This document shows positions 67 to 29,296 of a stretch of DNA of 33,568 bases, piece by piece. The notes below the pieces were generated by a model that was given only the letters and a program-made list of their open reading frames with translations, did no database searches and had not been told where the DNA came from. Source of the DNA: Anaerolinea sp. (GTDB lineage: Bacteria > Chloroflexota > Anaerolineae > Promineifilales > Promineifilaceae); NCBI GenBank assembly GCA_014879875.1, contig JACSRF010000387.1, forward strand, positions 1 through 33,568, given 5' to 3'. Position 1 is the first letter of the stretch. Each line of letters opens with the position of its first letter. A program made the translations under genes and the position numbers.

Positions 67-300
67 TATAAAACGGTCCGTTCTTGCCCCCTCTACTGTA
101 TTTTTCAGGTGTAGGGCGGCTAACGGCTTGCGTTAACCGCAAGTGGGCGGAACGTGAGCAATGCTTGGGAGTAGGATTCTATTCGGGTTTGGAAAATGCC
201 CGAAAAATGTCGCAGAATCCCGCCAGTCAGGTACATGCTTTGTAGTGCAGCGTTTGAATTGCAGACCATGTTGTTTGCTCGAACACTTGTGATTTATAAA
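67..300. other. Gene-free stretch with small hairpins
   Basis: I see no convincing gene here. There is a short hairpin (CTTGCG / CGCAAG around 127-143) just after a GGCTAAC heptamer at 118-124, which could be a degenerate attC end. A second nested hairpin pairs GGATTCT near 173 with AGAATCC near 214, with CGGG/CCCG inside. The base composition is like the AT-richer cassette-like region that follows. Confidence 0.4.
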
Positions 301-10800: not shown

Positions 10801-11172
10801 GCCGGCCTGGCCCTTGGGACAGAGCGCCCCTTCCACTTTGGCCGTCTGCGTAATGGGCAGGTTGTAATCCAGATGCGGCGCCAATGTCCACGGGCTGTAC
10901 GGGTTGCCATCAATTTTGGCGGCCACGCCATCCAGCATTTTCACCTTGATGCCGCAGCCGGTGTTGCATTGCAGACAAACGGTGTTGATCTGGTTGGTTG
11001 GGTCCGCCAGCACGTAAGCCGGGGCTTCTTCCGACGCGGCCAACAGCCGGTGGGCTATTGGCATCCCACCCAATACAGCCACGCTGCCGGCTGTCGCCGC
11101 CGACATCTTCAGAAAGTCGCGGCGCGACAGACCGCATTGTTCCGGTTGTTCGGAAAGCAGTTTCTTGCTCAT
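7873..11172 (-). CDS. Tat-exported molybdopterin oxidoreductase, catalytic subunit (copy 1)
   Basis: This is a 1099-residue DMSO-reductase-superfamily enzyme. The Tat signal is LSRRDFLK (about 15-22). A [4Fe-4S] site is formed by C66, C69, C73 and C118. A large molybdopterin guanine dinucleotide-binding body follows, with C277 in HTTICQGS as the probable molybdenum ligand. The size, the B-C-A gene order and the partners fit the tetrathionate, selenate or polysulfide/thiosulfate reductase group (TtrA, SrdA, PsrA). The sequence alone does not fix the substrate or direction. Its start overlaps the NrfD gene by four bases (ATGA). Compared with copy 2 it has an inserted (DWGQSG)x2 stretch. Enzyme assembly needs molybdenum cofactor genes, which are not in the window. 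Confidence 0.9.
8584..8625. repeat. 18-bp tandem repeat inside the copy 1 catalytic gene
   Basis: The 18-bp unit GTCGCCCGACTGTCCCCA occurs at 8584-8601 and 8602-8619, then partly again. On the coding strand it gives (DWGQSG) twice, just before the conserved [10 protein letters not shown] block. Copy 2 has only a short loop there, so this is an in-frame expansion. Confidence 0.85.
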
Positions 11173-12308
11173 TGCGTCACCTCCTGGGGCTGGCTGCTAA
11201 AAATCGGCAGGCGATCTAAACCCAGTAAAAAGACAATCGTCGCGCCTCCGGTAATGCCTATTGTCACGGCCCATTCCATCAGGCTGGGGAAATAATCAAA
11301 GGTCAGGTGCGGGCCGCTGAAGGCCCAGCGCAGTTCTTCCAGCTCCGGCACGGTGAGGGCGGGAAAGACGATATTGGCGCGCGCGGCCGTAAAGCCAAAC
11401 AAGACCAACAACCCCATCCATCCGGCGACCATGCTGTGGCGCGAATATTTGGGATGGAGCAGAAGAATAATCGGCAAAATCGTGCCTAGCCCAATCTGGA
11501 TAATCCAGAACGCCCACCAGTAACGGCCAAACAACACCTGGTTCACCGCATCCACGTTATGCGGAATCTGACCGTATAAGGATTGTGAAAAGTCCGTCCA
11601 CAAGAAGTACAGCTTCACAACAGCCAGACTCACGGTTAACAAACCCAACACCCTGATCTGTTGCGGACGGCGTGCATCTGGCGGCGCAAACCAGCCCATG
11701 ATCAGCAGCATCATCGCCGCCCCCGAAGCCAGTGAAAACACGGGAAATTGTGCCGGCAATAAACCGACATGCCAATAAGCACGGCTGGCGTTTACCCCCA
11801 GCAGCGCCCCCACGCCGCCGCTAAGAAAAACAGAAAAGAGCAAACCAAAAGCCATTAACGGTTTGAGCCAATTTTTCCGCTCCGGGAAGCGAATGGCCAC
11901 AACCAGGCTGGTCAGAATAATGCCGCCAAAAAGGGTATACCCCCACACCATCTGCGCCATCACCGACAAGAAGTTAGGCCGCATATAAACTTTGTAAATT
12001 CGCTCCATGTGTCCCAAATCCAGGCCAATGGAAGTCAATGCGGCCGGCAGCGTAATCAGAGCCGCCCACAACATAGCCCGCCCCGTCCCCTTAAACAGCG
12101 GAATTTCAAACAGATAGTCGAGCGTCGCCAGCATGTACGAACCGGCGGCGACGCCGGCAAAAAAGAGATACATGGCTACCCACAGTCCCCAGACCACGTA
12201 AGAGCCATAGTTGGCGTTGGCGTGGCCGGAGACAAAGCGATCAAAAAAGCCCCACGCACCGAAGACCAACGCCACCCCGCCTAGAGCATAGAGTATTTTC
12301 TTCGTCAT
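11169..12308 (-). CDS. NrfD/PsrC-like membrane subunit (copy 1)
   Basis: This 379-residue integral membrane protein has about eight to nine transmembrane helices and the NrfD/PsrC/TtrC layout. It would dock the exported Fe-S and catalytic subunits and exchange electrons with quinone. The segment GSYMLATLDYLFEIPLFKG after the second helix and the middle helix LGVNASRAYWHVGLLP are typical of the family. It has a GGAGGA ribosome binding site before the ATG at 12308, begins 12 bp after the Fe-S gene, and overlaps the catalytic gene start by 4 bp. No haem or Fe-S motif is present, so the subunit is cofactor-free, as in PsrC. Confidence 0.9.
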   Translation of the reverse strand: MTKKILYALGGVALVFGAWGFFDRFVSGHANANYGSYVVWGLWVAMYLFFAGVAAGSYMLATLDYLFEIPLFKGTGRAMLWAALITLPAALTSIGLDLGHMERIYKVYMRPNFLSVMAQMVWGYTLFGGIILTSLVVAIRFPERKNWLKPLMAFGLLFSVFLSGGVGALLGVNASRAYWHVGLLPAQFPVFSLASGAAMMLLIMGWFAPPDARRPQQIRVLGLLTVSLAVVKLYFLWTDFSQSLYGQIPHNVDAVNQVLFGRYWWAFWIIQIGLGTILPIILLLHPKYSRHSMVAGWMGLLVLFGFTAARANIVFPALTVPELEELRWAFSGPHLTFDYFPSLMEWAVTIGITGGATIVFLLGLDRLPIFSSQPQEVTQ

Positions 12309-12320
12309 TTTCAGTTCCTC

Positions 12321-13268
12321 CTATACCAGGTAGTAGACACGCGGTTCTGTGCCTAGTTCTTCTTTTAAGCGCATCACGTTGGGGCTGGCGATCATTTCCG
12401 CTACCAGGCTGTACGGGTCGTTGGCGTCGCCAAACAGGGTGGCCCGGCCAATGCAGGTGAGCGTACAAGCGGGCAGCATCCCTTCCTTGACGCGGTGCAG
12501 GCAAAAATGGCATTTACGCACGTTGCCAATGGGGGAGTGGTGCGGCTCGCGTTCGCGGGATCGTCCATACTCAAAAACGGGCAGCAGTTCCATCTGCGCC
12601 GCCCCAGTTTGCCCTAACAGCAGTCCGTTCCCTTGCGGCGTGTTGTCTATGTATTGGTCGCCAAAGTCGAAGGTGCGCGAAGCGTAGGGGCAGGCAGTCA
12701 TGCAGGCGCGACAGCCGATGCACTGATCATAATCCACTACCACCACGCCTTCTTCATTGGTGTAGGTGGCCGTGACCGGGCAAACGGGCACGCAGGGCGG
12801 ATTTTCGCACTGCATACATGGCTTGGGCAGGAAGGTACGGGTGACATTGGGAAATGTCCCCACTTCTTGCTCCAGTACCGGCCGGTAGACGATGCCGGGC
12901 GGCAGTTTGTTTTCGGCGATGCAGGCGATGGTGCAGGCGTGGCAGCCCACGCACTTGCGCAGGTCTATGACCATGACCCAACGCCGTTCCTCCGGACGTT
13001 TTTGCAGGGCGCGATGCAGTTCGATTTGCATACGCAGCAACACGTCAGGGGGATCGGTGGGGTCTATCTCGAAGGGGAAATCGGCAACGGCCGTTGCCTG
13101 GCCATTGGCAGCGCGATTCACAGCCGCCATAACCGCTTCTGGGTTCGCCATCAACTTATCCATAGCAACCAAAGCGGCGGCCGCGCCACCCGCACCCAAC
13201 AGGGCACGGAGAAAATCGCGGCGGGTACTATTTTGTGTATTTTCTTCTTGCTTTTCAAGCGGGGTCAT
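12321..13268 (-). CDS. Fe-S electron-transfer subunit, Tat-exported (copy 1)
   Basis: The start is the ATG at 13268, preceded by AAGGAGG; the extra six residues upstream from a TTG lack such support. The 315-residue product has a twin-arginine signal ([15 protein letters not shown]). Ferredoxin-type cysteine groups follow in order: [38 protein letters not shown] and [11 protein letters not shown] with a later CTLTC, enough for four [4Fe-4S] clusters as in PsrB/TtrB. It passes electrons between the NrfD membrane subunit and the molybdopterin enzyme. It is the first gene of the downstream operon, behind the promoter elements at 13333-13407. Confidence 0.9.
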
Positions 13269-13332
13269 AGAGGCCTCCTTACTCAAGTTAGGAATAAGGG
13301 AAGGGGGGATGCGCCTCTTCTCTTAACTGGGG

Positions 13333-13407
13333 ATTGTAGAGATGTTGAGTGTCTCTTAACAGGGGGAAAATCTTGACGATTTTACTGTTTGTTGTAGGGA
13401 AAATCCC
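13333..13407 (-). promoter_or_regulatory. Promoter module of the downstream molybdoenzyme operon
   Basis: On the minus strand a -10-like TACAAT (13338-13333) lies 25 bp downstream of the complement of GGGAAAATCTTGA (13364-13376). Further upstream is TTGTAGGGAAAATCCC (13392-13407). The same set occurs with nearly the same spacing before the other operon (19057-19135). If TACAAT is the -10, the first motif is centred near -44, the place for a class II activator. There is no good -35 hexamer, which also suggests activation. Confidence 0.55.
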
Positions 13408-13422
13408 CACACACGCCAAATA

Positions 13423-13460
13423 GCAATGCCGTGTCATAAAAGTTTGTGACACAGCATTGC
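13423..13460 (-). terminator. Stem-loop after the upstream operon, probable terminator
   Basis: GCAATGCCGTGTCA (13423-13436) pairs with TGACACAGCATTGC (13447-13460) with one mismatch and a 10-base loop. It lies between the stop of the copy 2 catalytic gene and the promoter of the downstream operon. No clear U-tract follows on the minus strand, so termination is likely but not certain. Confidence 0.6.
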
Positions 13461-13519
13461 CTGATATAAATTGTAAACTGGCCCAACCTGGAGAGATTGA
13501 ACCAGTCCTATCCTATAGA

Positions 13520-16500
13520 TTACGCTTTTACCACTTTCACTTTCGTGTCATAGAACACGGCGCTGCCCCCGGCCAGGTCTTGCAGCGTCACGTTGCCCAG
13601 ATGCGGGTCTACCCGCATCGCCGCATTGCCATGGACGCCGGTCGCCCGGCGCGGGTCGGCCTTGATGGTGGTATTGTTGATCACAATGTCTCGCGCCCCG
13701 CTGGCCCAATGCCCAAACCCCAGGGCAAAGGAGACGACGCCTGGTCGCATCCCCTGAATCACCTTCAGCTTGCTCACCATCGGCTTCCGCGTGCCATCCT
13801 GCAAATCCCAGACGCCGTCCGGATTGCTGGCAGAGACGATTTTCACCAGTTCGCCATCTTCCAGCCCCAGGCGGGCGGCGTCGCTGGCGTTCATTAGCAC
13901 CGGGTTTTCCGGCAGCAGGGAGAGCAGCCAGTAGTTGCTGACGGTGCGCGCCTTGGTCATCATGATCTCTTTGTGGGTGATCAGATGCAGGTCATAGCCT
14001 TCGTCCTCGATTTTCTCGCCAACGGAGGAAAGTCCGGGCTGCAAGTAAACGGCATACCCGGCAAACGGCTTACCGGTCATCGTGTTGATGCTGGTGGCCG
14101 TTTTCTCCTGGTATAGGTTCAACTGCTTGGCGTAGGCGTTGCTCACCAGCACATTCATTGCGCCGGTAGAAGGATCGCTTTTGTACGCTTTGGCATGGGC
14201 CTGGTAACGGCCGCCGCGATTCATCACATACACCACTTTGCGCCACAGGCTGTCATCGTTGCCTACTGCTTCTTTCCAGGTGGCTTCGTCATAGACCGAT
14301 TTGGGCAGATGCCGCCGCGCTTCACGGAAGATGCGCAGTTCTTCATCGTCGGCTTCGGGCACGTTGTCGCTGGCGTCTTCTTTTTCGCCAAAAGCGATGT
14401 TCGCCACCTGCTTCAGGTAAAGATGTTCTGGGCGGGTAAAAGGTACGCCCTCGCCCAACCCATCGGGGCCAAAACCGGGCAGGTCCAGCTTTTCGGCAAT
14501 CGCCATCATCATCGCCTCGGCGCTCAGCGGGATTTCTTCGCCGTAGACGGTGACGGTGGGCCAACCGGGAATGCTGATGGCCGGGTTACGCACATTTTCC
14601 ACTTTCCAGGGTACGGAGGGGTGCGTGCCGTGCAGTTCCCACCGCTCCAGGTAGGAGAGGTCGGGGAAAATGTAGTCGGCGTAGGTAGAAGTTTCGCCCA
14701 CCAGAATGTCGCTGGTGATGATCAGCGGGATTTTCTTCGGGTCCGCCAGGGTTTCGCTGACTTTGTGGGCGGCGGGCAGCGCGTAGTTGATGGCGCTCAT
14801 GTAAAACATGGCGATCTTCACCGGGTAGGGGTACATGCTGTCCATGGAAGCCACGTCTTCCTGGTAGAGGTCGGTGGACAGGGGGAACCATGGCCGTTGC
14901 GCCGGATAGCCCGCGAACAAAGTGGATTTCTCGTAGGTGGTCGTCGTGCGCAGGATATCTGTGCCAAACTTGACGTTTTTACCGTTGATCATTTTACCGA
15001 GCACAAATGGCCCTTGCGCCTTGTCGCCTGTGTATTGGTAGGTCGTGCCTTTGATCATGCCGCCGACGTGGTCTACATTGCCGATGAGGCAGTTGAGGGT
15101 GTACCAGGCCATGACGTTGTAGAAGCCGTTGGTATGCTGGCTGACGCCGCGATGCAGGTCGGCGCAGGCGCGCGTGCCGTGGCTGGTAAACTCATAGGCC
15201 AGTTCTATGATGTCGCGCGTGCGAATGCCAGCAATCTCTGCCCATTCGGCAATGGTGTGGGCTTTGGCTTCTTCGTAGATGATTTGCAGGCCACTCTTAA
15301 CGGCGACGCCGTTGAGCGTAGTGTCTACGAATGGCTCGCCGTAGGCGGGCGCTTCTGTGCTGTTGGGATCAAAGAGAACAGGTTCGCCATCGGCCAAAGC
15401 GACGAAAGGGTCGAAGGCGTAGTCTGTGCCGGCGGGGTCTGTGTAAATAGTGACTTCTTTGCCGTCGGCGTCCGTTTCAACGCGGCTCGTGGTCAGTTCC
15501 AGGTCGGCGCCGCGCAGGAATTTGCCGGGCTGGCCGTCTTTGATCTTGACCAGCCAGGAGCCAGTGGTCCAGGTGGCTTCGCCCTGGGCGTTGGCGGCGG
15601 CTTTGTTGGCGTTGCTGATGAATTGGGCGTTGTAACGGCCGTTGTCAATCACCCACTGAATCATTGCCAGAGCCATCGCTGCATCCTCACCCGGCTTAAT
15701 GGGTACCCACTTCCAGGCGTGCGACCCCGCTTTGTTTAAACGCGGATCTACGATGGCGTACTTTTTGCCCTGTATTGTGCCCTCAGTAATCTTCGGTACG
15801 CGCTGTGGCGGTCCATAGTTCGCTTCGAAAACATTTGCGCCTACGTAAATGACAAAATCGCTGTTGGCGGCGTCTGTTTGCCAGTAGAACTTGGAACCGC
15901 CGGTGAATTTACTGCCGTCCCACTGCTCGCTCATTGCCTTGCCGGTGAAGTAGAGCGAACCCTGGCAAACGGTAGTATGACCGTTGGCGTTGATCGAGCC
16001 GAAGCTGTCGCCAACGAAACGCTTGAAGAGATCGCCACGGCCGTTCTTCAACCGCCCCCAAATAAAGGCAAACTGATTGTTCTTCGGCCCCAAATCGGGA
16101 TGATCCGGGTCTATCATCACATCCAGGTGGTCGGCAAAAGTCGTCTTAAACTCGGCCACCAGGTCTTGTTTTTTGGCAGCGTCTTTCTCACCCCAAATCT
16201 TAGCCACCGCGTCGGCCATTTGCTTGGCGACAGCCGAATCGCTGAGGGCATAGAGGTCTTTGAACCCATCTACCCGCCCTTCGCCAAACAGGTCGCCGCC
16301 GTTGACCACTTCCTCAATCGCTTTGTCAAAAGCAATGGTCTCCCACTGCCCTGCGCCGCGCTTCGTGCCCGGTTTACGCTTGAGAACACTAACGATGCGG
16401 TAAGGATCGTAGGTTGATTGCAGCCCCGATTGCCCTTTGGGGCACAGCGCGCCTTCTACCTCGCCCATCTCGCTGACCGGCGTCTCATAGGGCAGGTGCG

Positions 16501-16798
16501 GCCACAGTGTCCAGGGGCTGTACGGGTTGCCGTCAATTTTGGCGGCCACGCCATCCAGGAGCTTAACCTTGATACCGCAGCCGGTGTTGCATTGCAGGCA
16601 AACAGAGTAAATCTGGTTGGTAGGGTCGGTCAGCGGATAATTGCCAGCGGTTGCGCTTTGCTGGGCCATGGCCTCCTTAAACAGAGGCAGCCCACCCAGG
16701 AAGGCGACGGCGCCACTACCGGCGACCGCGGACACTTTGAGAAAATCGCGTCGAGAGAGACGGTCGTTACGCTCTTGTATCTTAGTTTGCTCACTCAT
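13520..16798 (-). CDS. Tat-exported molybdopterin oxidoreductase, catalytic subunit (copy 2)
   Basis: The start is ATG 16798 (MSEQTKIQER), with GGAGG just upstream and 1 bp after the NrfD stop; an open extension upstream lies within the NrfD gene and is not used. The 1092-residue product is a close paralogue of copy 1, sharing long identical stretches such as [10 protein letters not shown] and NGGDLFGEG. It has a Tat signal (LSRRDFLK), a [4Fe-4S] site C67/C70/C74/C119, and C278 in HTTVCQGS as the probable molybdenum ligand. Substrate group as for copy 1. It lacks the DWGQSG expansion, and its operon has no cytochrome c gene. The pair probably arose by tandem duplication and may have split in substrate or conditions of use. 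Confidence 0.9.
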   Translation of the reverse strand: MSEQTKIQERNDRLSRRDFLKVSAVAGSGAVAFLGGLPLFKEAMAQQSATAGNYPLTDPTNQIYSVCLQCNTGCGIKVKLLDGVAAKIDGNPYSPWTLWPHLPYETPVSEMGEVEGALCPKGQSGLQSTYDPYRIVSVLKRKPGTKRGAGQWETIAFDKAIEEVVNGGDLFGEGRVDGFKDLYALSDSAVAKQMADAVAKIWGEKDAAKKQDLVAEFKTTFADHLDVMIDPDHPDLGPKNNQFAFIWGRLKNGRGDLFKRFVGDSFGSINANGHTTVCQGSLYFTGKAMSEQWDGSKFTGGSKFYWQTDAANSDFVIYVGANVFEANYGPPQRVPKITEGTIQGKKYAIVDPRLNKAGSHAWKWVPIKPGEDAAMALAMIQWVIDNGRYNAQFISNANKAAANAQGEATWTTGSWLVKIKDGQPGKFLRGADLELTTSRVETDADGKEVTIYTDPAGTDYAFDPFVALADGEPVLFDPNSTEAPAYGEPFVDTTLNGVAVKSGLQIIYEEAKAHTIAEWAEIAGIRTRDIIELAYEFTSHGTRACADLHRGVSQHTNGFYNVMAWYTLNCLIGNVDHVGGMIKGTTYQYTGDKAQGPFVLGKMINGKNVKFGTDILRTTTTYEKSTLFAGYPAQRPWFPLSTDLYQEDVASMDSMYPYPVKIAMFYMSAINYALPAAHKVSETLADPKKIPLIITSDILVGETSTYADYIFPDLSYLERWELHGTHPSVPWKVENVRNPAISIPGWPTVTVYGEEIPLSAEAMMMAIAEKLDLPGFGPDGLGEGVPFTRPEHLYLKQVANIAFGEKEDASDNVPEADDEELRIFREARRHLPKSVYDEATWKEAVGNDDSLWRKVVYVMNRGGRYQAHAKAYKSDPSTGAMNVLVSNAYAKQLNLYQEKTATSINTMTGKPFAGYAVYLQPGLSSVGEKIEDEGYDLHLITHKEIMMTKARTVSNYWLLSLLPENPVLMNASDAARLGLEDGELVKIVSASNPDGVWDLQDGTRKPMVSKLKVIQGMRPGVVSFALGFGHWASGARDIVINNTTIKADPRRATGVHGNAAMRVDPHLGNVTLQDLAGGSAVFYDTKVKVVKA

Positions 16799-16799
16799 C

Positions 16800-18011
16800 T
16801 TACTTTTCCTCCACCGTTTGATCGGCATGTGGCCGCAGCCAGAGCACGTTATAGCCATATAAAAAGACCAGGAAACCGAAGGATAGGGCAAAAAGGGTCA
16901 CAAGCCACTCGGAAATTGTGGGGAAATAGCTCGTGTGCAGCCCTGGCCCTTGGTAGGCTATCACCAATCCCTTTTCAACAACTTCGATCACCAACTGCGG
17001 CGGAATGACGATATTCAGCGGCACGGCGATGAAGGTGATGACAAACAACGCCGCGGCAAGGCCGACCCGGCGCGCCGTTTGCGTTTGCGTCAACAACAAA
17101 ATTGTCGGAACAACAACGCCGATGCCGATGTGGAAAATCCAGTAAACCCACCAATACGGCCCAAACAGAGTCAATTGCAGGGCAGTTGCCTGTGCCGGTA
17201 CACCTGGATACAGGATGACCAGGCCGCCTAACGCCGAGGCGATCAGACCGATGATCAGCAGTCCGAGGAAAAGCTGCCCCAGCCGTTTGGCCGTCATCAG
17301 ATACGCCTCGCCCCGTTCACCAGGCCAAAAAGCGACAAATTGCAGGGTAAGCAGGGCGGTTCCGGCGACCAACGATGAAAGTAAAAAGTAAAGAGGCAGC
17401 GCGCTGCCCTGCCAGGTCGGCCGGCCAATGACCACGCCAAAGACGCTGCCAGCCACAACCACCAGGCCGATGCCCAACGGCAGGCTGATATAGGAGAGCC
17501 AGACGCCAACCCGTTTTAATTGGGGCGTTGGTCGCAGCTCAATAAACAGCTTGGTCAATAGCACACCCATGTAAATGACGTGCATCCAGATCATCCAGGT
17601 CATCAGCGATCCCCACTGCGGGTAAATCAACACGTGCCAGGCACGGAAGGGGTGTCCCAGGTCTAGCCCGATGAGGATGAGCGCCATACCGAGAATGGCA
17701 ACGGCCGTCAGGTATAAGGTGCGCGCCATACCCGGCAACGCAGATTTCCATTTGAAGACGTAAACCAGCACGGTAAACACAAACAAGGAGCCAACTTCCA
17801 GCCAGACCAGGTACTCATACGCCGCTACCCACAAACCCCAGGGCACAAAGGATCCCAGGTCCGTAGGGCGCAGCCCACCCACAAAACGTTGCACCAGGCC
17901 TATGCCGCCGATCAACAAACCGACAAAACCAAGTAACCAAAGTGTTTTGTCCGGCGTCCAACGCAGCTTCGATGGCGTTTTTGTCTCTTTTACGATAGTT
18001 TCTGTAGCCAT
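16800..18011 (-). CDS. NrfD/PsrC-like membrane subunit (copy 2)
   Basis: I placed the start at ATG 18011 (MATETIVKET) because GGAGGG lies five bases before it; an ATG four codons earlier overlaps the Fe-S gene stop but has no such site. The 403-residue product has about nine transmembrane helices with the NrfD layout, including GSLFVFTVLVYVFKWKS after an early helix, and a polar N-terminus. It is more diverged from copy 1 than the other two subunits are. It should anchor the exported subunits and react with quinone. It is followed after one base by the catalytic gene. Confidence 0.9.
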   Translation of the reverse strand: MATETIVKETKTPSKLRWTPDKTLWLLGFVGLLIGGIGLVQRFVGGLRPTDLGSFVPWGLWVAAYEYLVWLEVGSLFVFTVLVYVFKWKSALPGMARTLYLTAVAILGMALILIGLDLGHPFRAWHVLIYPQWGSLMTWMIWMHVIYMGVLLTKLFIELRPTPQLKRVGVWLSYISLPLGIGLVVVAGSVFGVVIGRPTWQGSALPLYFLLSSLVAGTALLTLQFVAFWPGERGEAYLMTAKRLGQLFLGLLIIGLIASALGGLVILYPGVPAQATALQLTLFGPYWWVYWIFHIGIGVVVPTILLLTQTQTARRVGLAAALFVITFIAVPLNIVIPPQLVIEVVEKGLVIAYQGPGLHTSYFPTISEWLVTLFALSFGFLVFLYGYNVLWLRPHADQTVEEK

Positions 18012-18022
18012 TTTTCCCTCCA

Positions 18023-18973
18023 TCAGGTCAGATAGTACACTTTGGGTTGTGTACCTAATTCTGCACGCAAGCGCATGACGTTCGGGCTGGCGATCAGCTC
18101 CGAAACCAGGCTGTTTGGATCATTCGCATCGCCAAAATAGGTGGCGCGACCAATGCAGGTGGTGGTGCAGGCCGGTAGTTCGCCCACTTCAATACGGTGC
18201 ATACAAAAATGACATTTGCGCACGTTGCCGATAGGCGAGCGTTCCCGCTTCCGCGTCCGCGCCTCGCCATATTCAAAGGCTGGCAAAAGTTCAAGGACGG
18301 TTCCGCCTTCACCCAAGACGACCTCATTTTCTTTGGGTGTGTCGTCGTATTTGCTGAAACCAAAGTCAAAGTAGCGTGAATTATAAGGGCAGGCGTTCAT
18401 GCAGTAGCGGCAGCCGATGCAGCGGTCATAATCCATCACCACGATGCCGTCAGCCCGTTTATAGGTGGCGTTGACTGGGCAAACATCGGTGCAGGGCGGT
18501 TCGTCGCAATGCAGGCAGGGGCGGGGCATGAAGCGGCGGGTGACGTTGGGGTAAACGCCAATTTCCTCTTCGACGACCTGGCGGTAAACGACGCCTGGCG
18601 GCAGCTTGTTTTCGGCGACGCAGGCGATGGTGCAGGCGTGGCAGCCGACGCATTTACGCAGGTCAATGACCATGACCCAACGCCGTTCTTGCATCGGTTT
18701 TTGCAGGGCGCGGCGCAGTTCCTCTTGCATGCGTACCAAGACGTCAACCGGTTTGGTGGGGTCATAATCGTCGAGTTGGGGGACGGCGCCGACCTGTTGG
18801 GGGATGGTGAATACGCCGATGTCTTCATCCTCAGTCAGCATTTTGCCGACGGGAGTAGCGGCGATGGCCGCCAATCCGGCCGCGCCAAACAGCGTGCGCA
18901 GGAAGTTGCGCCGGCTGCTGTCGGCTGCGTCCACCGTCCCGGTTGTGGTGGTTTTCTCTTCAACTTGGGACAT
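18023..18973 (-). CDS. Fe-S electron-transfer subunit, Tat-exported (copy 2)
   Basis: This 316-residue first gene of the upstream operon has a twin-arginine-type signal ([16 protein letters not shown] in place of RRDF). Cysteine groups for four [4Fe-4S] clusters follow: [38 protein letters not shown] and [11 protein letters not shown] with CTTTC. It matches copy 1 block by block. AAGGAG lies upstream of the ATG at 18973. The stop overlaps the upstream alternative start of the NrfD gene by one base, so the operon is tightly coupled. Its promoter region is shared with the divergent STAND ATPase gene. Confidence 0.9.
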
Positions 18974-19135: not shown

Positions 19136-19226
19136 GAAAAAAGTTGTTTACATGTCATCAGTGAATCTGTACAATTTTGTCCAGGTTTTTAGAGTTTTTA
19201 GATTTTCAGATACACCAGGAGGCGTC

Positions 19227-21305
19227 ATGATCACTCGACTGGAGAACCGCCTAACGACAGCTCGCCGCAAACGTTTTGTCGGCCGTCATGCTGAGTTGGA
19301 ATTATTCCGCGCGGCACTCAGTCGGGATATACCTGATTTTGCCGTGCTGCACCTGCACGGCCCTGGCGGCATGGGCAAAACCACGCTGCTGCGCGAATTT
19401 GCTCGCATTGCTGAGGAAGCGGGACGGCCGTATGTGTCCCTAGACGGCCGTCACCTCGACGCCTCACCGCCCGGCTTCCTCACCGCCCTGCAGCAAGCCC
19501 TCAACCTGCCCCCCGAAACCACCCCTCTGGATGCCCTCGCCAACACCCCAGACCTCATCCTCCTACTGGACACCTACGAACTACTATCTCCGTTGGATGG
19601 CTGGCTGCGTGAACAATTCCTGCCCGACTTGCCGGAGCGGGCCATTGTGATCATCGCCGGCCGCCAACCACCGCCCGCCGCCTGGCGCGCCGGAGGTTGG
19701 GCAGAGCTGACGCGCATCATCTCGCTGCGCAACCTGCGCCCCGACGAAAGCGCCGCCTATCTGCACGGCCAGGGCGTACCGGAAGACGAAGCAGACCATG
19801 TCCTCAGTATGACCTACGGCCATCCTTTGGCCCTCTCCCTGGCCGCCGACCTCTTCCAACAGAACAAAGCTGCCAGCGCCTTCGATCTGAAACAAGACCC
19901 CGACGTGGTACACCTCTTGCTGGAGCGCTTCGTCGCCGATGTGCCCGACCCTGTTTTGCGCCAGGCGCTAGAGGTCTGCGCCCACGCCTTCACCACCGAC
20001 GAAGCGCTGCTGGCGCACTGCCTGGGCGCCGACCATGCCCATGCCGCCTTCCAATGGCTGCGCGATCTTTCCTTTATTGAGCAGGGGCCGTTTGGCCTCT
20101 TTCCCCATGACCTGGTGCGGGAACTGCTGGAAGCGGAGCTGCGCTGGCGCAACCTGCCCCGCTTTCGCGAGCTTCATTTTCAGGTACGCAGCTACATCAT
20201 CGGGCAAATTCAGCAGCGCAGCGGGCTGGCGCAGCAGTTCGCCGTCTTTGCCCTGCTCTTCCTGCATCGCAACAACCCGTTTATGCGCTCTTTCTATGAA
20301 TGGCAATCTCTGGGCCAGCTTTACCTGGATGAAGCCCGACCAGCGGATATGCCGGCCATTGAGGCGATGATTCTCAAGTATCAGGGCGAAGAATCCCTGG
20401 CGCTCACTCGTTATTGGCACGGCCGTTCCCAGGCCGCCTTCTACGTAGCCCGCGCCGCCGGGCAGTCCATTGCCGGTTTTTTTCATGTGATCGAGATGAG
20501 TCAGGCCGTGGCCGCCGATCTGGCGGCCGATCCGGCTTTACAAAGCGCCTTCCATCACCTGCAAACCCATGCTCCCCTGCGCCAGGGTGATGTTGTTTTC
20601 TATTTCCGCAACTGGATGAGCGCCGACAATTACCAGATGTCGCCCGCCATCTTCAATATGGGGGCGATGCTCTGCCTGCGTTATTACTTTAATACGCCGC
20701 GCCTGGCTTACGCCTTCGTTGCCCAGACCAACAGCAATTATTACGCCACCATGTTCGATTATTTGCGCACGCCCCTGGCCCCCGACGCCGGTTTTGTCAT
20801 GGATGGGCAGGCGTTCGGCGTCTTTGCCCACGATTGGCGGGTCGAGCCGGTTCTGGAATGGATGAACATCATGGGGGAGCGGGAACTGCTGGATGAAATT
20901 GTAGCCCTGGAGAATCTGCCCCACACGCCGCAGCCGGTGGCGCTGTCCGAGCCGGAATTTGCCGAAGCGGTGCGCCAGGCGCTGAAAGATGTGCGCCGCC
21001 CCGACCTGTTAGCGCAAAACCCGCTGCTGCGCTCCCGCTGTCTGCGCGACCGGGGCGAGGCTGAGCTAACCCCGGCTCACCTGCAAGCCCTGCTGCGTGA
21101 AGGGGCAGAGACCCTCACCGCCAGCCCCAAAACGCAAAAGCTGCACCGCGTTCTCTGGCACACCTACTTTGAACCAGCTCCCACCCAAGAAGCGACCGCC
21201 GAACTACTCGATCTCCCCTTCAGCACCTATCGCTACCAGTTGGGCAAAGCGGTGGGGCAGCTTATTGGCTGGCTCTGGCAGCGGGAACTGTACGGCGTGG
21301 AATAA
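19227..21305 (+). CDS. STAND-type ATPase, possible transcription regulator
   Basis: The start at ATG 19227 is supported by AGGAGG at 19217-19222; an ATG 75 bases upstream lacks this. The 692-residue product has an AAA/STAND nucleotide-binding domain: GPGGMGKTT at residues 45-53 (K51), Walker B ILLLD at 111-115, and a GRQPP sensor-like segment, followed by a winged-helix-like region. The middle is helical. The last ~60 residues (TQEATAELLDLPFSTYRYQL) look like a helix-turn-helix, which would suit DNA binding. It is divergent from the upstream molybdoenzyme operon with a shared 253-bp gap, so it is a candidate regulator of that operon; a defence or signalling role is also possible. No repeat sensor domain is obvious. 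Confidence 0.8.
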   Translation: MITRLENRLTTARRKRFVGRHAELELFRAALSRDIPDFAVLHLHGPGGMGKTTLLREFARIAEEAGRPYVSLDGRHLDASPPGFLTALQQALNLPPETTPLDALANTPDLILLLDTYELLSPLDGWLREQFLPDLPERAIVIIAGRQPPPAAWRAGGWAELTRIISLRNLRPDESAAYLHGQGVPEDEADHVLSMTYGHPLALSLAADLFQQNKAASAFDLKQDPDVVHLLLERFVADVPDPVLRQALEVCAHAFTTDEALLAHCLGADHAHAAFQWLRDLSFIEQGPFGLFPHDLVRELLEAELRWRNLPRFRELHFQVRSYIIGQIQQRSGLAQQFAVFALLFLHRNNPFMRSFYEWQSLGQLYLDEARPADMPAIEAMILKYQGEESLALTRYWHGRSQAAFYVARAAGQSIAGFFHVIEMSQAVAADLAADPALQSAFHHLQTHAPLRQGDVVFYFRNWMSADNYQMSPAIFNMGAMLCLRYYFNTPRLAYAFVAQTNSNYYATMFDYLRTPLAPDAGFVMDGQAFGVFAHDWRVEPVLEWMNIMGERELLDEIVALENLPHTPQPVALSEPEFAEAVRQALKDVRRPDLLAQNPLLRSRCLRDRGEAELTPAHLQALLREGAETLTASPKTQKLHRVLWHTYFEPAPTQEATAELLDLPFSTYRYQLGKAVGQLIGWLWQRELYGVE

Positions 21306-22050: not shown

Positions 22051-23442
22051 ATGGCACAATCAAAAACGTTTACCGGCAAGCAGGCAGTGGTCATCGGGGC
22101 CAGCATGGGTGGGCTTTTGGCCGCCCGCGTGTTGTCCAACCATTTTGAGCAGGTGACATTGCTGGAACGGGACACCTTCCCGGCAGCGGGAGAGAACCGC
22201 AAAGGTGTGCCACAGGGCCGCCACGCCCACGCCATCCTGGCGCAGGGGCTGCAAATCATGGAAGGGTATTTTCCCGGCCTGACGGATCGGCTGATCAGCC
22301 TGGGCGCGGATTATGAGGACGTGAGCAATTTTGCCCGCTGGTTTCACGAAGGCGACTGCCATCAGCCAACGGTGAGCGGGGTGAATGCTATCAACGTCAG
22401 TCGTCCCCGGCTGGAGGCTGAGGTGCGGGCACGGACGCTGGCCTTGCCCAACGTGCAGGCGGTGGAAGGGTGCGACGTGTTGGGATTGTTGGCCGCGCCG
22501 GACAACGGCCGTATCATCGGCGTGCGCATCATCCGGCGCAAGGCAGGCAGCGCAGAGGAGGGCCTGACGGCCAATCTGGTCGTAGACGCCAGCGGGCGCG
22601 GCTCACGCAGCCCGGCCTGGCTGGAAGGGCTGGGGTACGAACGCCCGGCAGAAGAAGCGGTAAAGATTGGCATTACCTACACCTCCTGCCAATACCGGCG
22701 CAAACCGGGGCACATGCCCGGCGTCAATGCCCTCATCGTGGCCCCATCGCCGAAGAACCCGCGCGGCGGCGTGCTGCTCAGCCAGGAAGGAAATCGCTGG
22801 ATGTTGACGGTAGCAGCTTATCTGGGCGAGCAGATCCCCCAGGACCACGTAGGATTGCTGGCTTTTGTGCGCAGCATGGACACCCCGGCGCTGTACGATG
22901 TGGTGACCAACGCCGAGCCAATTGGCGATCCGGTTCCGCATAAGATTCCCTCGAACCTGCGGCGGCGGTATGAGCGGTTGAACCGTTTCCCGCAAGGGTA
23001 TCTGGTGCTGGGAGATGCGCTGTGCAGTTTTAACCCGATTTATGGGCAAGGGATGTCGGTGGCGGCGCTGGCGGCGGCGGCGCTGGACGGCTGCCTGGCA
23101 CTAGGGGAGGAGCGACTGGCGCAGCGGTTCTTCAAGCAGGCGAGCAAAATCATTGATATTCCATGGGGAACGGCCGTTGGCAATGACCTGCGCTTCCCGG
23201 AAGTGGAAGGGCCGCGCAGCCCCATGACGCGCTTCATCAACTGGTACCTGGAAAAGCTGCACCATGCAGCGCACCACGACCCGGTCGTCTCCATCGCTTT
23301 TCTGAAGGTGGTGAATCTGATGGCGCCACCGCCCAGCATGATGCAGCCGGGTATCATGTGGCGGGTGCTGCGGGGCAATCTGCGGACACGCAGACAGCAG
23401 ACGACGACGCAGGGGTATGGCATGACTGAGGCGGCGGCTTGA
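22051..23442 (+). CDS. FAD-dependent monooxygenase / geranylgeranyl-reductase-like flavoprotein
   Basis: This 463-residue protein has an N-terminal Rossmann FAD-binding motif (VVIGASMGG, residues 13-21) followed by LLERD, the acidic residue that binds ribose. The middle segment LVVDASGRGSRSP and the C-terminal GDALCSFNPIYGQGMSVA are the second and third FAD motifs of the p-hydroxybenzoate hydroxylase/geranylgeranyl-reductase/halogenase superfamily. The substrate cannot be read from the sequence. The N-terminus lacks a signal peptide, so it is cytoplasmic. It stands alone, with a bidirectional stem-loop at its 3' end. Confidence 0.85.
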   Translation: MAQSKTFTGKQAVVIGASMGGLLAARVLSNHFEQVTLLERDTFPAAGENRKGVPQGRHAHAILAQGLQIMEGYFPGLTDRLISLGADYEDVSNFARWFHEGDCHQPTVSGVNAINVSRPRLEAEVRARTLALPNVQAVEGCDVLGLLAAPDNGRIIGVRIIRRKAGSAEEGLTANLVVDASGRGSRSPAWLEGLGYERPAEEAVKIGITYTSCQYRRKPGHMPGVNALIVAPSPKNPRGGVLLSQEGNRWMLTVAAYLGEQIPQDHVGLLAFVRSMDTPALYDVVTNAEPIGDPVPHKIPSNLRRRYERLNRFPQGYLVLGDALCSFNPIYGQGMSVAALAAAALDGCLALGEERLAQRFFKQASKIIDIPWGTAVGNDLRFPEVEGPRSPMTRFINWYLEKLHHAAHHDPVVSIAFLKVVNLMAPPPSMMQPGIMWRVLRGNLRTRRQQTTTQGYGMTEAAA

Positions 23443-23497: not shown

Positions 23498-24853
23498 TTA
23501 TCTCGCTTCAACAACGAAAGTCGGCACAGTCGAACCCCCGCCGGCCGAGACGTTGAGCAAGGGGTCGGTAGACAGGCGCGTCAGGCAGCCATCCACGTAA
23601 TCGCCATAGAAAATGAAGGGGGCGGTGTCTAACATGCGTTCATAGATTTGGAGACGGCCGTCTACAATGCTCGGATATGGCTCCGTGGGAATGGGCACGC
23701 GCTCTTGCACAATATACGGGCTGTCGCTGTGCAGCGCTTCCTCTACCGCTTTCTCCCAGCCGCTGGTGTTGGTTTGCCAGCCGAGCACAATGCCGCGCCC
23801 GCCATAATCGTCGTTAGGCTTCAGCACCAGTTGCTCGCGGTATTTGAGGATGAAGGGCAGCAGGTCAATGGGAGCATTGCCATAAATCGAATGCCGCTCG
23901 GCTACCACGCGCGTCCAGGGGATGTGCGCCCGAATGGCGCGCAGTTCCTCTTCGTCAAACATCTCCATGTTTTGCTCGTCGTTGAGCACGGCCAGGCTGG
24001 CTTTTTTGTACAGCAGCTTACATTGGAAGGGATTGACCAGGCAGACGGCGTGGTCGCGCACGGCTTGCACCACCGGGCTGTTGATCCCGGTTCGTTCGAT
24101 CAATTCGGTGATGAGGACGCGCTTATAGATGACGTTGATGTGGAAATCATTGTGCAGGAGACGGCCGTTTTCATACGTCACCTCGCGCGGGTCAATGATG
24201 CGGCAGACCAATCCCTGCGATTGGAAATATTGGGTGAACAGTTCAAACTCACTGTGCGTGGGCACTTCACGCCAGTCCAAAATAGCGATGTTCGGCTTTG
24301 CCACACCGCCCCATTCACGGTAGGCGTCCAGCAGTACGTGCATGACGCTGTGCCGGGTGGGCAACGGCCGTACCACATATTTGCGCATAAAGTCGCCCAT
24401 CACCGGCAGCCCATAAAAGACATCATTGAGCACATCGTTATACGCCGACGCGGCCGGCACTTCCGCGTTGTACTCAGTAAACTTCAGTTCCATATTTGAC
24501 GTGACAAAGAAAGCGTCCAGCCTGGTCAAAGGGGTGTGCATGGTATAGCCGGGGTCAATGTGGACGAGCTGCTCTTCCCAGTCAAACAGGCCAAACTGCT
24601 GGCGGAAGGGGGTGTCCACCACTGCCCGCCGTGAAATTTTATCGAAGGCGCGCAGCAACGGCCGTATCTCCCGCCGTAAAAATTTGTACTGCTCCAATGT
24701 CAGGAAACGAGGGCGCAGGACGGTGCATAACGGCCGTTCCCCAAAATACAACCCGCGCCGCATCATCTGATCTTGAAGCTGCTCCCAGGACTCCTCCGCC
24801 CGCGCCTCCGTCAGCAAATCATGGTAGGTGTCAACTGCCTCTTTTAACGCCAT
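23498..24853 (-). CDS. ATP-grasp-like ligase (circularly permuted type, glutathionylspermidine-synthase-like)
   Basis: This 451-residue cytoplasmic protein has a glycine-rich phosphate loop LKPNDDYGGRGIVLG (344-358) followed by an SPYIVQERVP segment, as in ATP-grasp enzymes. The C-terminal GGGSTVPTFVVEAR holds further conserved glycines. The long N-terminal half contains EYNAE and an LDWRE segment. The layout suggests a carboxylate-amine or carboxylate-thiol ligase with a permuted fold, but the substrate is unknown. It is the last of a minus-strand set with another ATP-grasp gene and an esterase. The 147-bp gap upstream contains two inverted repeats, so it may be transcribed partly on its own. 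Confidence 0.75.
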   Translation of the reverse strand: MALKEAVDTYHDLLTEARAEESWEQLQDQMMRRGLYFGERPLCTVLRPRFLTLEQYKFLRREIRPLLRAFDKISRRAVVDTPFRQQFGLFDWEEQLVHIDPGYTMHTPLTRLDAFFVTSNMELKFTEYNAEVPAASAYNDVLNDVFYGLPVMGDFMRKYVVRPLPTRHSVMHVLLDAYREWGGVAKPNIAILDWREVPTHSEFELFTQYFQSQGLVCRIIDPREVTYENGRLLHNDFHINVIYKRVLITELIERTGINSPVVQAVRDHAVCLVNPFQCKLLYKKASLAVLNDEQNMEMFDEEELRAIRAHIPWTRVVAERHSIYGNAPIDLLPFILKYREQLVLKPNDDYGGRGIVLGWQTNTSGWEKAVEEALHSDSPYIVQERVPIPTEPYPSIVDGRLQIYERMLDTAPFIFYGDYVDGCLTRLSTDPLLNVSAGGGSTVPTFVVEAR

Positions 24854-24876
24854 CTCGCCTCATTCCTTTGTAAATC

Positions 24877-24964
24877 GAACATCCCTGTTCGATGTCCGAA
24901 CAAGGATGTTCGGGCTACAGAGTTTCATTCATTCGTGGTGCGCCGCAGGCGCGTGTTGTCTCCT
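24877..24964. repeat. Dispersed repeat copy 2 with partner arm
   Basis: GAACATCCCTGTTC (24877-24890) pairs with GAACAAGGATGTTC (24898-24911) with one mismatch. From 24898 the sequence repeats the start of the window (1-66) with four changes. It separates the two ATP-grasp genes. Confidence 0.8.
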
Positions 24965-24976
24965 CTGCAAATGTAA

Positions 24977-24996
24977 GGCGAACTTTCCAGTTCGCC
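24977..24996. terminator. Perfect 8-bp stem-loop after the ATP-grasp gene
   Basis: GGCGAACT (24977-24984) and AGTTCGCC (24989-24996) are exact reverse complements with a TTCC loop, five bases past the stop codon at 25001. It is a probable terminator or REP-type element. Confidence 0.65.
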
Positions 24997-25000
24997 CGCA

Positions 25001-25921
25001 TCAAAACAACCCTGCCCATTTCAACTCTGTTAACTGCGGACGTGGATTTTGCGCCAGGTCAATGACCATATCCGCCATATGCTTCACCACCCAATCGAAG
25101 TAAAACGGGGTCAGCGAATTCACGTCCATATCTGGGGCCGGGTTCATGAAATCAATGGCATACGGCACGCCATCACGCACGGCAAATTCGGCCGTATTCA
25201 TGTCATATCCCAACGCACGATTCAGCTTGAGCGCATCTTCTACAATGCGCTGTCCCAATTCTGGCGACAGGTGCGCGTGCTCTATGTAATATTTACGCTC
25301 GCCAGGGGAATACTTCATCGGCAGCACCTCTTTTTGCCCCAGGCACATACAGCGCACGTAATGATCCCACTCAATGAACTCCTGCAAAATCATCGTCAGC
25401 AGCCCCGATTCATCATACGCCCGCCACACATCCTCTTTGGTGTAGCAAATGTACACGTCGCGCCAGCCGCCGCCATGCGCATCTTTCAACACACAGGGCA
25501 GGCCGATGTAGTCGAGAATGCCTTCCCAATCCAACGGATAAACCAGATTACGCAGGCTTTCGTTGTGAATAATACCTGGCACATAATCCTTGTTGGGCAG
25601 CGCTATCGTTTTGGGGCTGGCAACGCCCAATTTTGTCGCCAGTGACGCCTCGAAAAATTTGTCATCGGCCGTCCACATGAATGGGTTATTGACCACCGCA
25701 ACCCCTTGCAGCGCCGCATTTTTCAAATAGGAACGGTAATACGGTACTTCGTGGGAAATACGGTCAACGATGACGGCATACGGATTGGGTTCATCCATGC
25801 GCGTGCCACCCAATTTGACGTATTCAGCCGTCACCCCTGCTTTGCGCCGATTCACTTCCTCAATAAACGCCGGCGGAAACGACCATTCCCGCCCTACCAA
25901 CAAACCAACCTTGAGCGTCAT
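25001..25921 (-). CDS. ATP-grasp ligase (RimK/D-Ala-D-Ala ligase-like)
   Basis: I chose ATG 25921 as the start because GGAGG lies four bases upstream; the ATG just before it is too close to that site. The 306-residue product has an N-terminal domain, then the ATP-grasp loop LKDAHGGGWRD (about 145-155), QEFIEWDHYV (the ATP-adenine contact region), and the metal-binding end with E in MNTAEF (near 245) and the DFMNP motif (near 257-261). It probably joins a carboxylate to an amine or similar group, with ATP. It lies directly downstream of the esterase gene on the same strand, and a second ATP-grasp gene follows, which suggests two-step synthesis of a small amide compound. Confidence 0.85.
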   Translation of the reverse strand: MTLKVGLLVGREWSFPPAFIEEVNRRKAGVTAEYVKLGGTRMDEPNPYAVIVDRISHEVPYYRSYLKNAALQGVAVVNNPFMWTADDKFFEASLATKLGVASPKTIALPNKDYVPGIIHNESLRNLVYPLDWEGILDYIGLPCVLKDAHGGGWRDVYICYTKEDVWRAYDESGLLTMILQEFIEWDHYVRCMCLGQKEVLPMKYSPGERKYYIEHAHLSPELGQRIVEDALKLNRALGYDMNTAEFAVRDGVPYAIDFMNPAPDMDVNSLTPFYFDWVVKHMADMVIDLAQNPRPQLTELKWAGLF

Positions 25922-25938
25922 CATACCTCCTTTGTACG

Positions 25939-26008
25939 GGATTGACGGTTGACGATTTTGGATTTACGATTCACTCGTCACTCGTCACTCGTCACTCGTC
26001 ACTCACCC
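25939..26008. repeat. In-register heptamer array (10 units)
   Basis: Consecutive blocks are GGATTGA, CGGTTGA, CGATTTT, GGATTTA, CGATTCA, four CTCGTCA, and CTCACCC. It fills the gap between the esterase stop codon (26003) and the ATP-grasp ribosome binding site, and overlaps the end of the esterase gene. Confidence 0.85.
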
Positions 26009-26722
26009 ATGTCCGCCAATATACAACGGCAGCATCTGCTGCCACCACGGCCAATCATGCGCCCAGCCATCCCAGAGGCGCAGCGCATTGCCGATGCCCT
26101 TTTGCCAGAGCAGCGCCGACAACTGTTCGCTGCTGCCACGCAGGGGATCATCTTTGCCTACGGCCAAAATGATGTCCAACTTTTGCAGCGCCGCAATCCG
26201 CTGCGAATCGTGCTCGTGAGAGATGAAGGCCACCGGGTTGTTGCTGTGAACATTTTGGTCTGTGTGGCCGTTTGTCCACCGACCGATGTCATAAATACCG
26301 CTCATGCCAATGGCGCGCCCGACCACGTGGGGATGACGCAGGGCAAAATTCACGGCATGATAAGCGCCAAAACTGGCGCCGACGGTGATCAGAAACGGGT
26401 TAGGGTTTTTTTGCCACGACAGCGGCAAGACTTCATTAAGGAGGTAATATTCATATTGAATCTGTCGCCAGGCGCGATCTCCTGGATGCTTCCAATGCGC
26501 ATACCAGCTCTCTGCATCCACACTGTCCACGCAAATCAGTTGCACCCAGCCATTATCCAGGTGTCCCCGAATGGCGTTTGTCATTTGCCGGTCTTCCCAT
26601 TCGTAGAACTTGCCTTTAGAGGTGGGAAACACCAGGACGCGCGCTCCTGCATGTCCAAAAATCAACAATTCCATATCGCGGCCTAGCGCGGGGCTGTGCC
26701 AACGGTGGTATTCACGATTCAT
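26003..26722 (-). CDS. Esterase of the COG4947 / enterochelin-esterase-like type
   Basis: This 239-residue alpha/beta hydrolase has nucleophile S117 in GASFGA, an acidic residue in GKDDP (D191 or D192), and H222 in WAHDW, in the order expected for a Ser-Asp-His triad. The N-terminus (HSPALGRDMELLIFGHAG) resembles the putative esterase family that includes Fes and S-formylglutathione hydrolases. No signal peptide is seen, so it is cytoplasmic. It begins the minus-strand set with two ATP-grasp genes. It may hydrolyse an ester or thioester linked to the product of those ligases; this is inference. GGAAGG lies upstream of the start. Confidence 0.8.
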   Translation of the reverse strand: MNREYHRWHSPALGRDMELLIFGHAGARVLVFPTSKGKFYEWEDRQMTNAIRGHLDNGWVQLICVDSVDAESWYAHWKHPGDRAWRQIQYEYYLLNEVLPLSWQKNPNPFLITVGASFGAYHAVNFALRHPHVVGRAIGMSGIYDIGRWTNGHTDQNVHSNNPVAFISHEHDSQRIAALQKLDIILAVGKDDPLRGSSEQLSALLWQKGIGNALRLWDGWAHDWPWWQQMLPLYIGGHG

Positions 26723-26793
26723 GCCTGCTTTGCCTTCCTTCGTTCGGTTTTTTTGCCTGGAACTATCTGCCAGTGGGCAGTCATCCTGATTGC

Positions 26794-26849
26794 CGTTTAC
26801 GGATTACCGCTCACGGATTACCGCTCACGGATTACCGCTCACGGATATT
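26794..26849. repeat. In-register heptamer array (8 units)
   Basis: Blocks are CGTTTAC, then GGATTAC and CGCTCAC alternating three times, then GGATATT. It lies in the 291-bp gap between the divergent esterase and hisS genes, which also holds a hisS promoter and a leader hairpin. The remaining bases show no gene. Confidence 0.85.
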
Positions 26850-29180: not shown

Positions 29181-29183
29181 AGA

Positions 29184-29281
29184 CCGTGAACCGTGAACCG
29201 TGAACCGTGAACCGTAAACCGTAAACCGTGAACCGTGAACGGATAACGGATTACGGCTTACGGATTACGGCTTACGGATTA
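29184..29281. repeat. In-register heptamer array (14 units)
   Basis: Fourteen consecutive 7-bp blocks: CCGTGAA x4, CCGTAAA x2, CCGTGAA x2, CGGATAA, CGGATTA, CGGCTTA, CGGATTA, CGGCTTA, CGGATTA. It starts four bases after the nadK stop codon and ends just before the ribosome binding site of the next gene. An ATG inside it gives a spurious N-terminal extension to that gene. Confidence 0.95.
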
Positions 29282-29296
29282 CGCAAAAGGATGATC

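Follow-up and report, generated by a model that had tools for sequence, protein, structure and literature searches.

The stretch of DNA analysed here, which we call the window, comprises the 33,568 nucleotides (positions 1 to 33,568, forward strand) of contig JACSRF010000387.1 from Anaerolinea sp. (Chloroflexota, Anaerolineae, Promineifilaceae; assembly GCA_014879875.1), whose genome, designated G000, is a draft assembly of 6.9 Mb in 680 contigs. Its region 23498-26722 is filled exactly by three minus-strand open reading frames (ORFs), which encode, in this order, an esterase (EST), a canonical ATP-grasp ligase (GRASP) and a circularly permuted ATP-grasp ligase (CPG; Table 1), and it is this trio, its relatives in other bacteria and the pathway to which it may belong that we consider here. 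Comparison with G001, a genome of the same genus, revealed purifying selection on GRASP (dN/dS 0.06) and CPG (dN/dS 0.11); for EST, dS was saturated and pN amounted to 0.14. All three behave as real genes.

Table 1. The trio and the repeat within it: position in the window, strand, length and basis of the assignment.
Feature	Position	Strand	Length	Basis
EST, alpha/beta-hydrolase esterase, first gene of the trio	26003-26722	minus	239 aa	PF00756 above cut-off
GRASP, canonical ATP-grasp carboxylate-amine ligase of the RimK/LysX/ArgX/Ddl fold	25001-25924	minus	307 aa	AlphaFold model, invariant residues
CPG, circularly permuted ATP-grasp ligase of the YjfC/YgiC/glutathionylspermidine-synthetase/glutathione-synthetase fold	23498-24853	minus	451 aa	AlphaFold model, invariant residues
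Dispersed repeat between CPG and GRASP	24864-25000			genome-wide matches

The identity of the three proteins was assessed with family models, fold comparison and three alignments (A1, A2 and A3), which hold 42, 45 and 44, respectively, of the 53 complete trios from the survey described below, each together with the window's own sequence. EST matches the Pfam family Esterase (PF00756) with 35.3 bits against a gathering cut-off of 22, and its profile matches solved esterases, including a ferulic acid esterase and 6vh9, which we take to be FphF. Of the 45 aligned EST sequences, all have Ser117 (in the motif GASFG) and His222, and at least 90% have Asp192; judged from the motif, Ser117-Asp192-His222 is the putative catalytic triad.

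The two ligases are less readily placed by family models than by their folds. Searched on its own, GRASP has no Pfam hit at E <= 0.01, and it stays far under the cut-offs of the NCBIfam models rimK_fam (TIGR00768; 28.6 bits, cut-off 143.4) and D-Ala-D-Ala ligase (19.6 bits, cut-off 404); RimK is matched at E <= 0.01 by 10 of the 43 members of its alignment. The best fold match of its AlphaFold model (m5f8ad7a77c19, mean pLDDT 85.6) is RimK (5zct; Z 22.8, rmsd 2.7 Å, 260 residues aligned), and RimK, LysX, ArgX and D-Ala-D-Ala ligase all resemble it in fold (Z 19 to 22.8) at only 11-18% identity. Lys147, Glu246, Asp258 and Asn261, presumably the residues that bind ATP and Mg, are invariant in all 43 sequences, and the relatives of GRASP across three phyla are 67-88% identical to the window's protein (69% in the Acidobacteriota locus). 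CPG scores 28.6 bits against PF14403 (CP_ATPgrasp_2), below the cut-off of 32, while 39 of the 46 members of its alignment match this family at E <= 0.01. Its model (m3240e93c148a, mean pLDDT 92.7) shows the permuted ATP-grasp fold throughout its length, with YjfC, GspS and GSS matching residues 1-449 at Z up to 31.4; the best match is YjfC (7uk6; Z 31.4, rmsd 3.3 Å, 374 residues aligned), and homoglutathione synthetase (3kal) reaches Z 29.2. The known acid-amine ligases of E. coli, YjfC/YgiC and glutathionylspermidine synthetase, share the fold of CPG (Z 27.6 to 31.4), although CPG is only 12-16% identical to them; the E-x-N-A-x-T-P stretch of YjfC/YgiC aligns with a corresponding E-x-N-A-x-(T/V)-P stretch in CPG. 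Arg111, Asp113, Glu127, Asn129, Lys345, Asp348, Gly351 and Gly352 are invariant in all 46 sequences. Since GRASP has the fold of RimK, ArgX, LysX and Ddl, and CPG that of YjfC/YgiC and the glutathionylspermidine and glutathione synthetases, the locus encodes two types of ATP-grasp ligase. An earlier reading of the sequence alone had described three same-strand neighbours, an esterase and two ATP-grasp ligases of different type, and in this respect it was right.

Contigs were scanned for relatives of GRASP, which yielded 178, and the best 80 of these 178 were counted as loci; they belong to Chloroflexota, Gemmatimonadota, Planctomycetota and, in one case, Acidobacteriota. EST lies upstream and CPG downstream of GRASP on the same strand in 64 of the 80 loci, and the remaining 16 have EST only (10), CPG only (four) or neither (two), so that EST accompanies GRASP in 74; eight of the 16 incomplete loci lie within ~225 bases of a contig end on the side where a gene is missing. 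Among the 53 complete trios the gap between EST and GRASP varies from 9 to 1043 bases (starts picked by script), and five of them show a 4-base overlap between GRASP and CPG. The gene trees of the trio, from which L098 was left out because its esterase ORF was cut, have 19 to 24 of 49 splits in common, as opposed to a mean of ~0.2 after shuffling. They mostly follow phylum (3 to 4 changes), and we therefore make no claim of horizontal transfer from mixing at the phylum level. Close relatives of CPG are rare in Planctomycetota, where one of 199 genomes, the centre genome of the search, exceeds 300 bits. Family f22 of the window's class has a tandem of two longer and diverged copies of GRASP, which share 28-32% identity with that of the window (L120, 6218-9789; also L123 and L173); this tandem follows a diverged EST and is situated away from the CPG of f22.

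To avoid anchoring on GRASP, CPG was also searched in 150 genomes of Gemmatimonadota. A match above 450 bits was found in 34 of them, and 33 loci were analysed, with the centre genome of the search left out (counts by tblastn, at least 90 bits). GRASP is present in all 33, a GCS2 carboxylate-amine ligase in 31, a Peptidase C26 (gamma-glutamyl hydrolase) in 30, EST in 19, a second esterase in 15, a third ATP-grasp ligase in six and a subtilase in none. Seventeen of the 19 EST are 48-62% identical to the window's and two 33%; in the other 14 stretches, two of which (L200 and L222) end at GRASP, EST was not found. EST is thus absent from some lineages. Within the window's class, 150 genomes gave matches at E <= 0.001 to GRASP in 37, CPG in 35, EST in 38 and GCS2 in 45. 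Counting as CPG only matches above 300 bits, which discards the weaker ones in 3 of the 35 genomes, GRASP adjoins CPG in 26 of 32 genomes, and EST, GRASP and CPG occur together in 24 (both by eye; one contig-split, three with an EST of 36-39% identity). Furthermore, G030 and G099, two genomes of one genus, have kept GRASP, CPG, EST and GCS2 on four different contigs each, which points to a shared function beyond shared position. The sequence-only reading had proposed a survey of gene neighbourhoods and had staked its case on the three genes being neighbours in other genomes as well. They are: the order kept at 64 of 80 loci and the GRASP found at all 33 CPG loci of Gemmatimonadota rule out chance neighbourhood.

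The trio is, moreover, only part of a larger set. Recurrent neighbours at the 80 loci were surveyed by ranking ORFs of at least 90 aa (at least 60 aa in the first clustering) by their matches to other loci, and the families were named from representatives. A GCS2 ligase lies near CPG in 31 of the 80 loci (confirmed by tblastn), Peptidase C26 occurs in 22 (21 near), the second esterase in 16 (15 near), the third ATP-grasp ligase in 13 (12 near) and the subtilase in nine, in seven of them upstream of EST on the same strand and in two downstream on the other strand. For the 49 loci without GCS2 in the stretch, 35 genomes were tested and 33 of them hold GCS2. Similarly, in the window's class GCS2 adjoins CPG in 17 of the 32 genomes with CPG (by eye), and it is present in 28 of these 32 as against 17 of the 118 genomes without CPG (Fisher p 1e-14, kinship ignored). 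The most constant core across lineages thus consists of three ligases, GRASP, CPG and GCS2. A representative GCS2 (L087) exceeds the cut-off of the PRK13515 carboxylate-amine ligase model (505 bits versus 371) and that of the YbdK-family model, matches PF04107 with 170 bits and the solved YbdK of E. coli at E 1e-43, which likens the recurrent fourth gene to a YbdK-type ligase. Downstream of GCS2, five loci of Planctomycetota (L100, 9470-9901; L080, L085, L098 and L109) encode a protein of 141-166 aa which has no Pfam match above cut-off.

The combination of GCS2 with the fold of CPG brings to mind a glutathione-like low-molecular-weight thiol, and a conjugated thiol was also among the products suggested by the sequence-only reading. 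GCS2 would then make gamma-Glu-Cys, CPG would act as a eukaryotic-type glutathione synthetase, GRASP would add a residue and EST would hydrolyse S-acyl conjugates. Indeed, gamma-glutamylcysteine ligases belong to the GCS2 family, and the fold of CPG matches glutathione and homoglutathione synthetases with Z up to 29.2. However, the same L087 GCS2, the only one tested, that passes PRK13515 does not reach any of the listed cut-offs for glutamate-cysteine ligases, the named neighbours include no recognised thiol enzyme, and the glycogen context described below would be left unexplained. Beyond the name of the GCS2 family and the glutathione-synthetase fold nothing among these neighbours points to thiols, and we consider such a pathway quite improbable.

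Relatives of the set occur close to genes of glycogen metabolism in three phyla. In Planctomycetota, a diverged CPG (CPGp, from L187) was searched in 294 genomes and exceeded 400 bits in eight, of which seven loci could be judged (L234 lies on a contig of 3.3 kb). All seven possess GlgA and a GH57 enzyme, six GlgC and four GH15, so that the diverged set is surrounded by the bacterial GlgC-GlgA pathway, and GCS2 is present in seven of the eight loci. GlgA, GH57, GlgC and GH15 were found in none of 13 other divergent CPG loci (one of which, L186, spans only 3.7 kb). The names are each based on one representative: GlgA on TIGR02095 (521.6 bits, cut-off 328.45), GlgC on TIGR02091 (469.2 bits, cut-off 424.9) and the GH57 branching enzyme on PF03065 with PF09210. 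A protein of 113 aa with CxxC motifs and no Pfam match adjoins GlgC in two of the planctomycetotan glycogen clusters (L181, 5099-5440; L187, 9888-10229).

In Gemmatimonadota, alpha-glucan genes are located within 25 kb of the set in six of ten genomes (19 flanking stretches of 20 kb); five of the six have relatives of GlgP and GlgA together and one has a GH57/DUF3536 protein only. By contrast, 20 control stretches from the same contigs contain no alpha-glucan gene (p 0.011 with genomes as the unit and 0.008 with stretches). Four of this phylum's 33 core stretches, which are mostly 12 kb long, have an alpha-glucan gene (L204, L206, L215 and L216). In the window's own family, a paralogue of GRASP (42-50% identity), with neither EST nor CPG beside it, lies directly beside an alpha-glucan phosphorylase in 14 of 15 loci; the phosphorylase was named from a representative (TIGR02094, 859 bits), and L032, at 28% identity, was not counted as a GRASP paralogue. 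Finally, six of the eight tested chloroflexotan subtilases upstream of EST carry a C-terminal glycogen-binding domain (CBM48 or AMPK1_CBM). These neighbourhoods suggest where the product of the set may act. In the window genome itself, the match to its alpha-glucan phosphorylase (G000:C217:470-2599) shows one apparent internal stop (TAA), though an ORF spans 479-2608 there.

We therefore propose that EST, GRASP and CPG are part of a multi-step amide-ligase pathway for a small, probably gamma-glutamyl, pseudopeptide that serves alpha-glucan storage, a reading to which we give slightly less than an even chance. In ligases of the ATP-grasp and GCS2 families a carboxylate is activated to an acyl phosphate and then coupled to an amine; for GCS2 enzymes this is commonly the gamma-carboxylate of glutamate. 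Peptidase C26 enzymes cleave gamma-glutamyl bonds. From this family chemistry we infer a scheme in which GCS2 comes first. Its core would be three ATP-using carboxylate-amine ligases, GCS2 (YbdK/PRK13515), GRASP (RimK/LysX/Ddl) and CPG (YjfC/glutathionylspermidine-synthetase/glutathione-synthetase), each converting a carboxylate into an acyl phosphate and then joining an amine to it, and two or three successive amide bonds would yield a small, probably gamma-glutamyl, pseudopeptide or peptide-amine. In the simplest order, GCS2 would make gamma-Glu-X, GRASP and CPG would lengthen or cap it by adding an amino acid or amine, and hydrolases that depend on the lineage (EST, the second esterase, Peptidase C26 and the subtilase) may release, trim or recycle the product. 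The latter could serve intracellular glycogen storage as a regulator, a co-stored nitrogen compound or a glycogen-associated molecule. That a small peptide or amide is made and trimmed had already been suggested from the sequence, and this stands insofar as ligases and hydrolases stay together across phyla, but the trio on which it was based is incomplete: GCS2 belongs to the core and EST is absent from some lineages. The glycogen link was missed there, since the window itself does not show it.

Several observations weigh against this proposal. The GCS2 gene of the window genome does not stand by the trio but elsewhere (G000:C440, L119). It groups with GCS2 from genomes devoid of the trio, in a clade of 11 outside the main cluster-GCS2 clade, and this position does not support it as a missing fourth gene of the same lineage. 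Nor does cluster GCS2 itself form one clade, in a tree whose root is unsure owing to the long branches of EcYbdK and L140. One trio-bearing family (G046, G081, G109 and G170) has no GCS2 match at all; in G081 and G109 the genes for C26, the subtilase, EST and GRASP follow one another directly (L161, where CPG is also present, and L164, which the end of the contig truncates). As for glycogen, the window contains no gene of the families sought, for which reason a glycogen role cannot be read directly off it, and only five of the 80 GRASP-anchored loci have a glycogen gene (at least 80 bits) in the stretch analysed, and only two of the 80 have one within ~6 kb of GRASP; such a role therefore rests, for this locus, on its relatives. 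Among these, the planctomycetotan set has diverged (its CPG shares 33-37% identity with that of the window), with GRASP in four of the eight loci and EST, C26 and subtilase in none, and the ten genomes of Gemmatimonadota were chosen for long contigs and not at random. The pairs of GRASP paralogue and GlgP belong to a single family and do not represent independent cases, and the paralogue was not seen in the window genome or in G001, where the contigs end close upstream of GlgP; a search for a fragment of it beside GlgP in these two genomes (L274 and L275) likewise found none.

The scarcity of glycogen genes at most GRASP-anchored loci would be expected if the set made a secreted or stored secondary metabolite, a pseudopeptide natural product comparable to E-64 or the dapdiamides, and the proximity to glycogen genes were historical and not functional. 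Stand-alone ATP-grasp ligases do make such products: the E-64 pathway (Cp1B/Cp1D) and the dapdiamide pathway build pseudopeptides from stand-alone ligases, without a nonribosomal peptide synthetase, and the E-64 ligase Cp1B (PMC12568646) shares the fold of CPG (Z 26.2). Unlike these pathways, the present set has no warhead-making oxygenase or adenylating amide synthetase that was recognised among its named neighbours. Furthermore, the only transporter-like neighbour cluster (ABC type, by eye) lies near the trio in just two of the 80 loci, an identity of 67-88% for GRASP over three phyla is unusual for genes of secondary metabolism, and glycogen neighbours recur in three phyla in differing arrangements. 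The rarity of the transporter and the conservation of GRASP together suggest an internal product of primary metabolism, and we regard a secondary metabolite as unlikely.

An alternative of a different kind is that the ligases modify proteins, such as enzymes of the glycogen granule, with amino acids or short peptides, and that C26 and the subtilase remove or process these tags. RimK, LysX and ArgX, the nearest folds of GRASP, join amino acids to protein carboxylates; proteases recur among the neighbours, with the glycogen-binding domain noted above on six of eight subtilases, and the protein of 141-166 aa after GCS2 in Planctomycetota would be a candidate acceptor. The Anbu operon, in which a glutathione-synthetase-like ATP-grasp ligase stands beside a protease relative and other hydrolases, has been proposed to be such a tagger (PMC6376114). 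In this likeness of ligase and peptidase it resembles the present set, although the Anbu, alphaE and transglutaminase-like genes that it holds were not seen among the Pfam-named neighbour families here. Against tagging, no small acceptor protein recurs across phyla among the neighbours of at least 90 aa, and relatives of GCS2 and CPG mostly couple small molecules. Protein tagging is a minor possibility beside the small-molecule pathway favoured here.

A bolder version of the small-molecule pathway would have the gamma-glutamyl pseudopeptide attached to glycogen, or priming it, as a small-molecule counterpart of glycogenin or as a glycogen tag: the ligases would make it, the esterases would act on its ester link to the glucan, and the CBM48-bearing subtilase together with C26 would remove it. 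We deem this version very doubtful. Priming by glycogenin is a eukaryotic trait, with which self-priming by GlgA in prokaryotes is to be compared; a 2024 review of prokaryotic alpha-glucan enzymes (PMC11046441) describes self-priming by GlgA, and the word 'amide' was not met in the part of it examined, nor 'ATP-grasp' among the matches listed from it.

Operons of ATP-grasp and GCS2 ligases with peptidases are already known: Iyer et al. 2009 (Mol BioSyst 5:1636) reportedly predicted amidoligase operons in which such ligases are combined with peptidases and hydrolases, and proposed peptide synthesis or tagging as their function. This work is cited by PMC6376114 and PMC4431377. What is unexpected is the glycogen context. 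Among the matches listed from the open-licence PMC literature, no paper was recognised on this set or on ATP-grasp ligases together with glycogen genes, which, being limited to the best matches in that literature, is weak evidence of novelty.

Several other features of the window deserve mention. The repeat between CPG and GRASP has at least 45 further matches in G000 (40 of 297 candidates scored), nearly all of which begin from window position ~24861 onward; one copy lies at the start of the window (1-67) and several others at contig ends, and it is a genome-wide repeat outside the ligase system. Short tandem arrays with units of 7 and 14 bases (TCACTCG, GATTACCGCTCACG, ACCGTGA and ACGGATT) are found at 25971-26004, 26788-26846 and 29183-29283, one of them between EST and GRASP. 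Two genes neighbour the trio on the other strand, one for an FAD-dependent oxidoreductase (22051-23442; weak QhpG/FAD_binding_3) and one for an AAA_16/NB-ARC-like ATPase (19152-21305) that weakly resembles proteins of the FxSxx-COOH system; the scan of the other loci turned up neither of them. Finally, 7873-18973 holds two similar-looking blocks in tandem, each of three genes (proteins of about 1100, 380-410 and 320 aa, judged from ORFs only), whose largest and smallest proteins have RRxF-type, Tat-like N-termini, and this region is possibly a duplicated molybdoenzyme complex.

The ligase set is strongly conserved and apparently uncharacterised, and its occurrence in at least four phyla implies a small molecule not yet described. 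The set also places an esterase family and three orphan ligase families in one biological context. If the tie to glycogen is functional, bacterial glycogen would here have a peptide-like partner outside the GlgC-GlgA-GlgB scheme.

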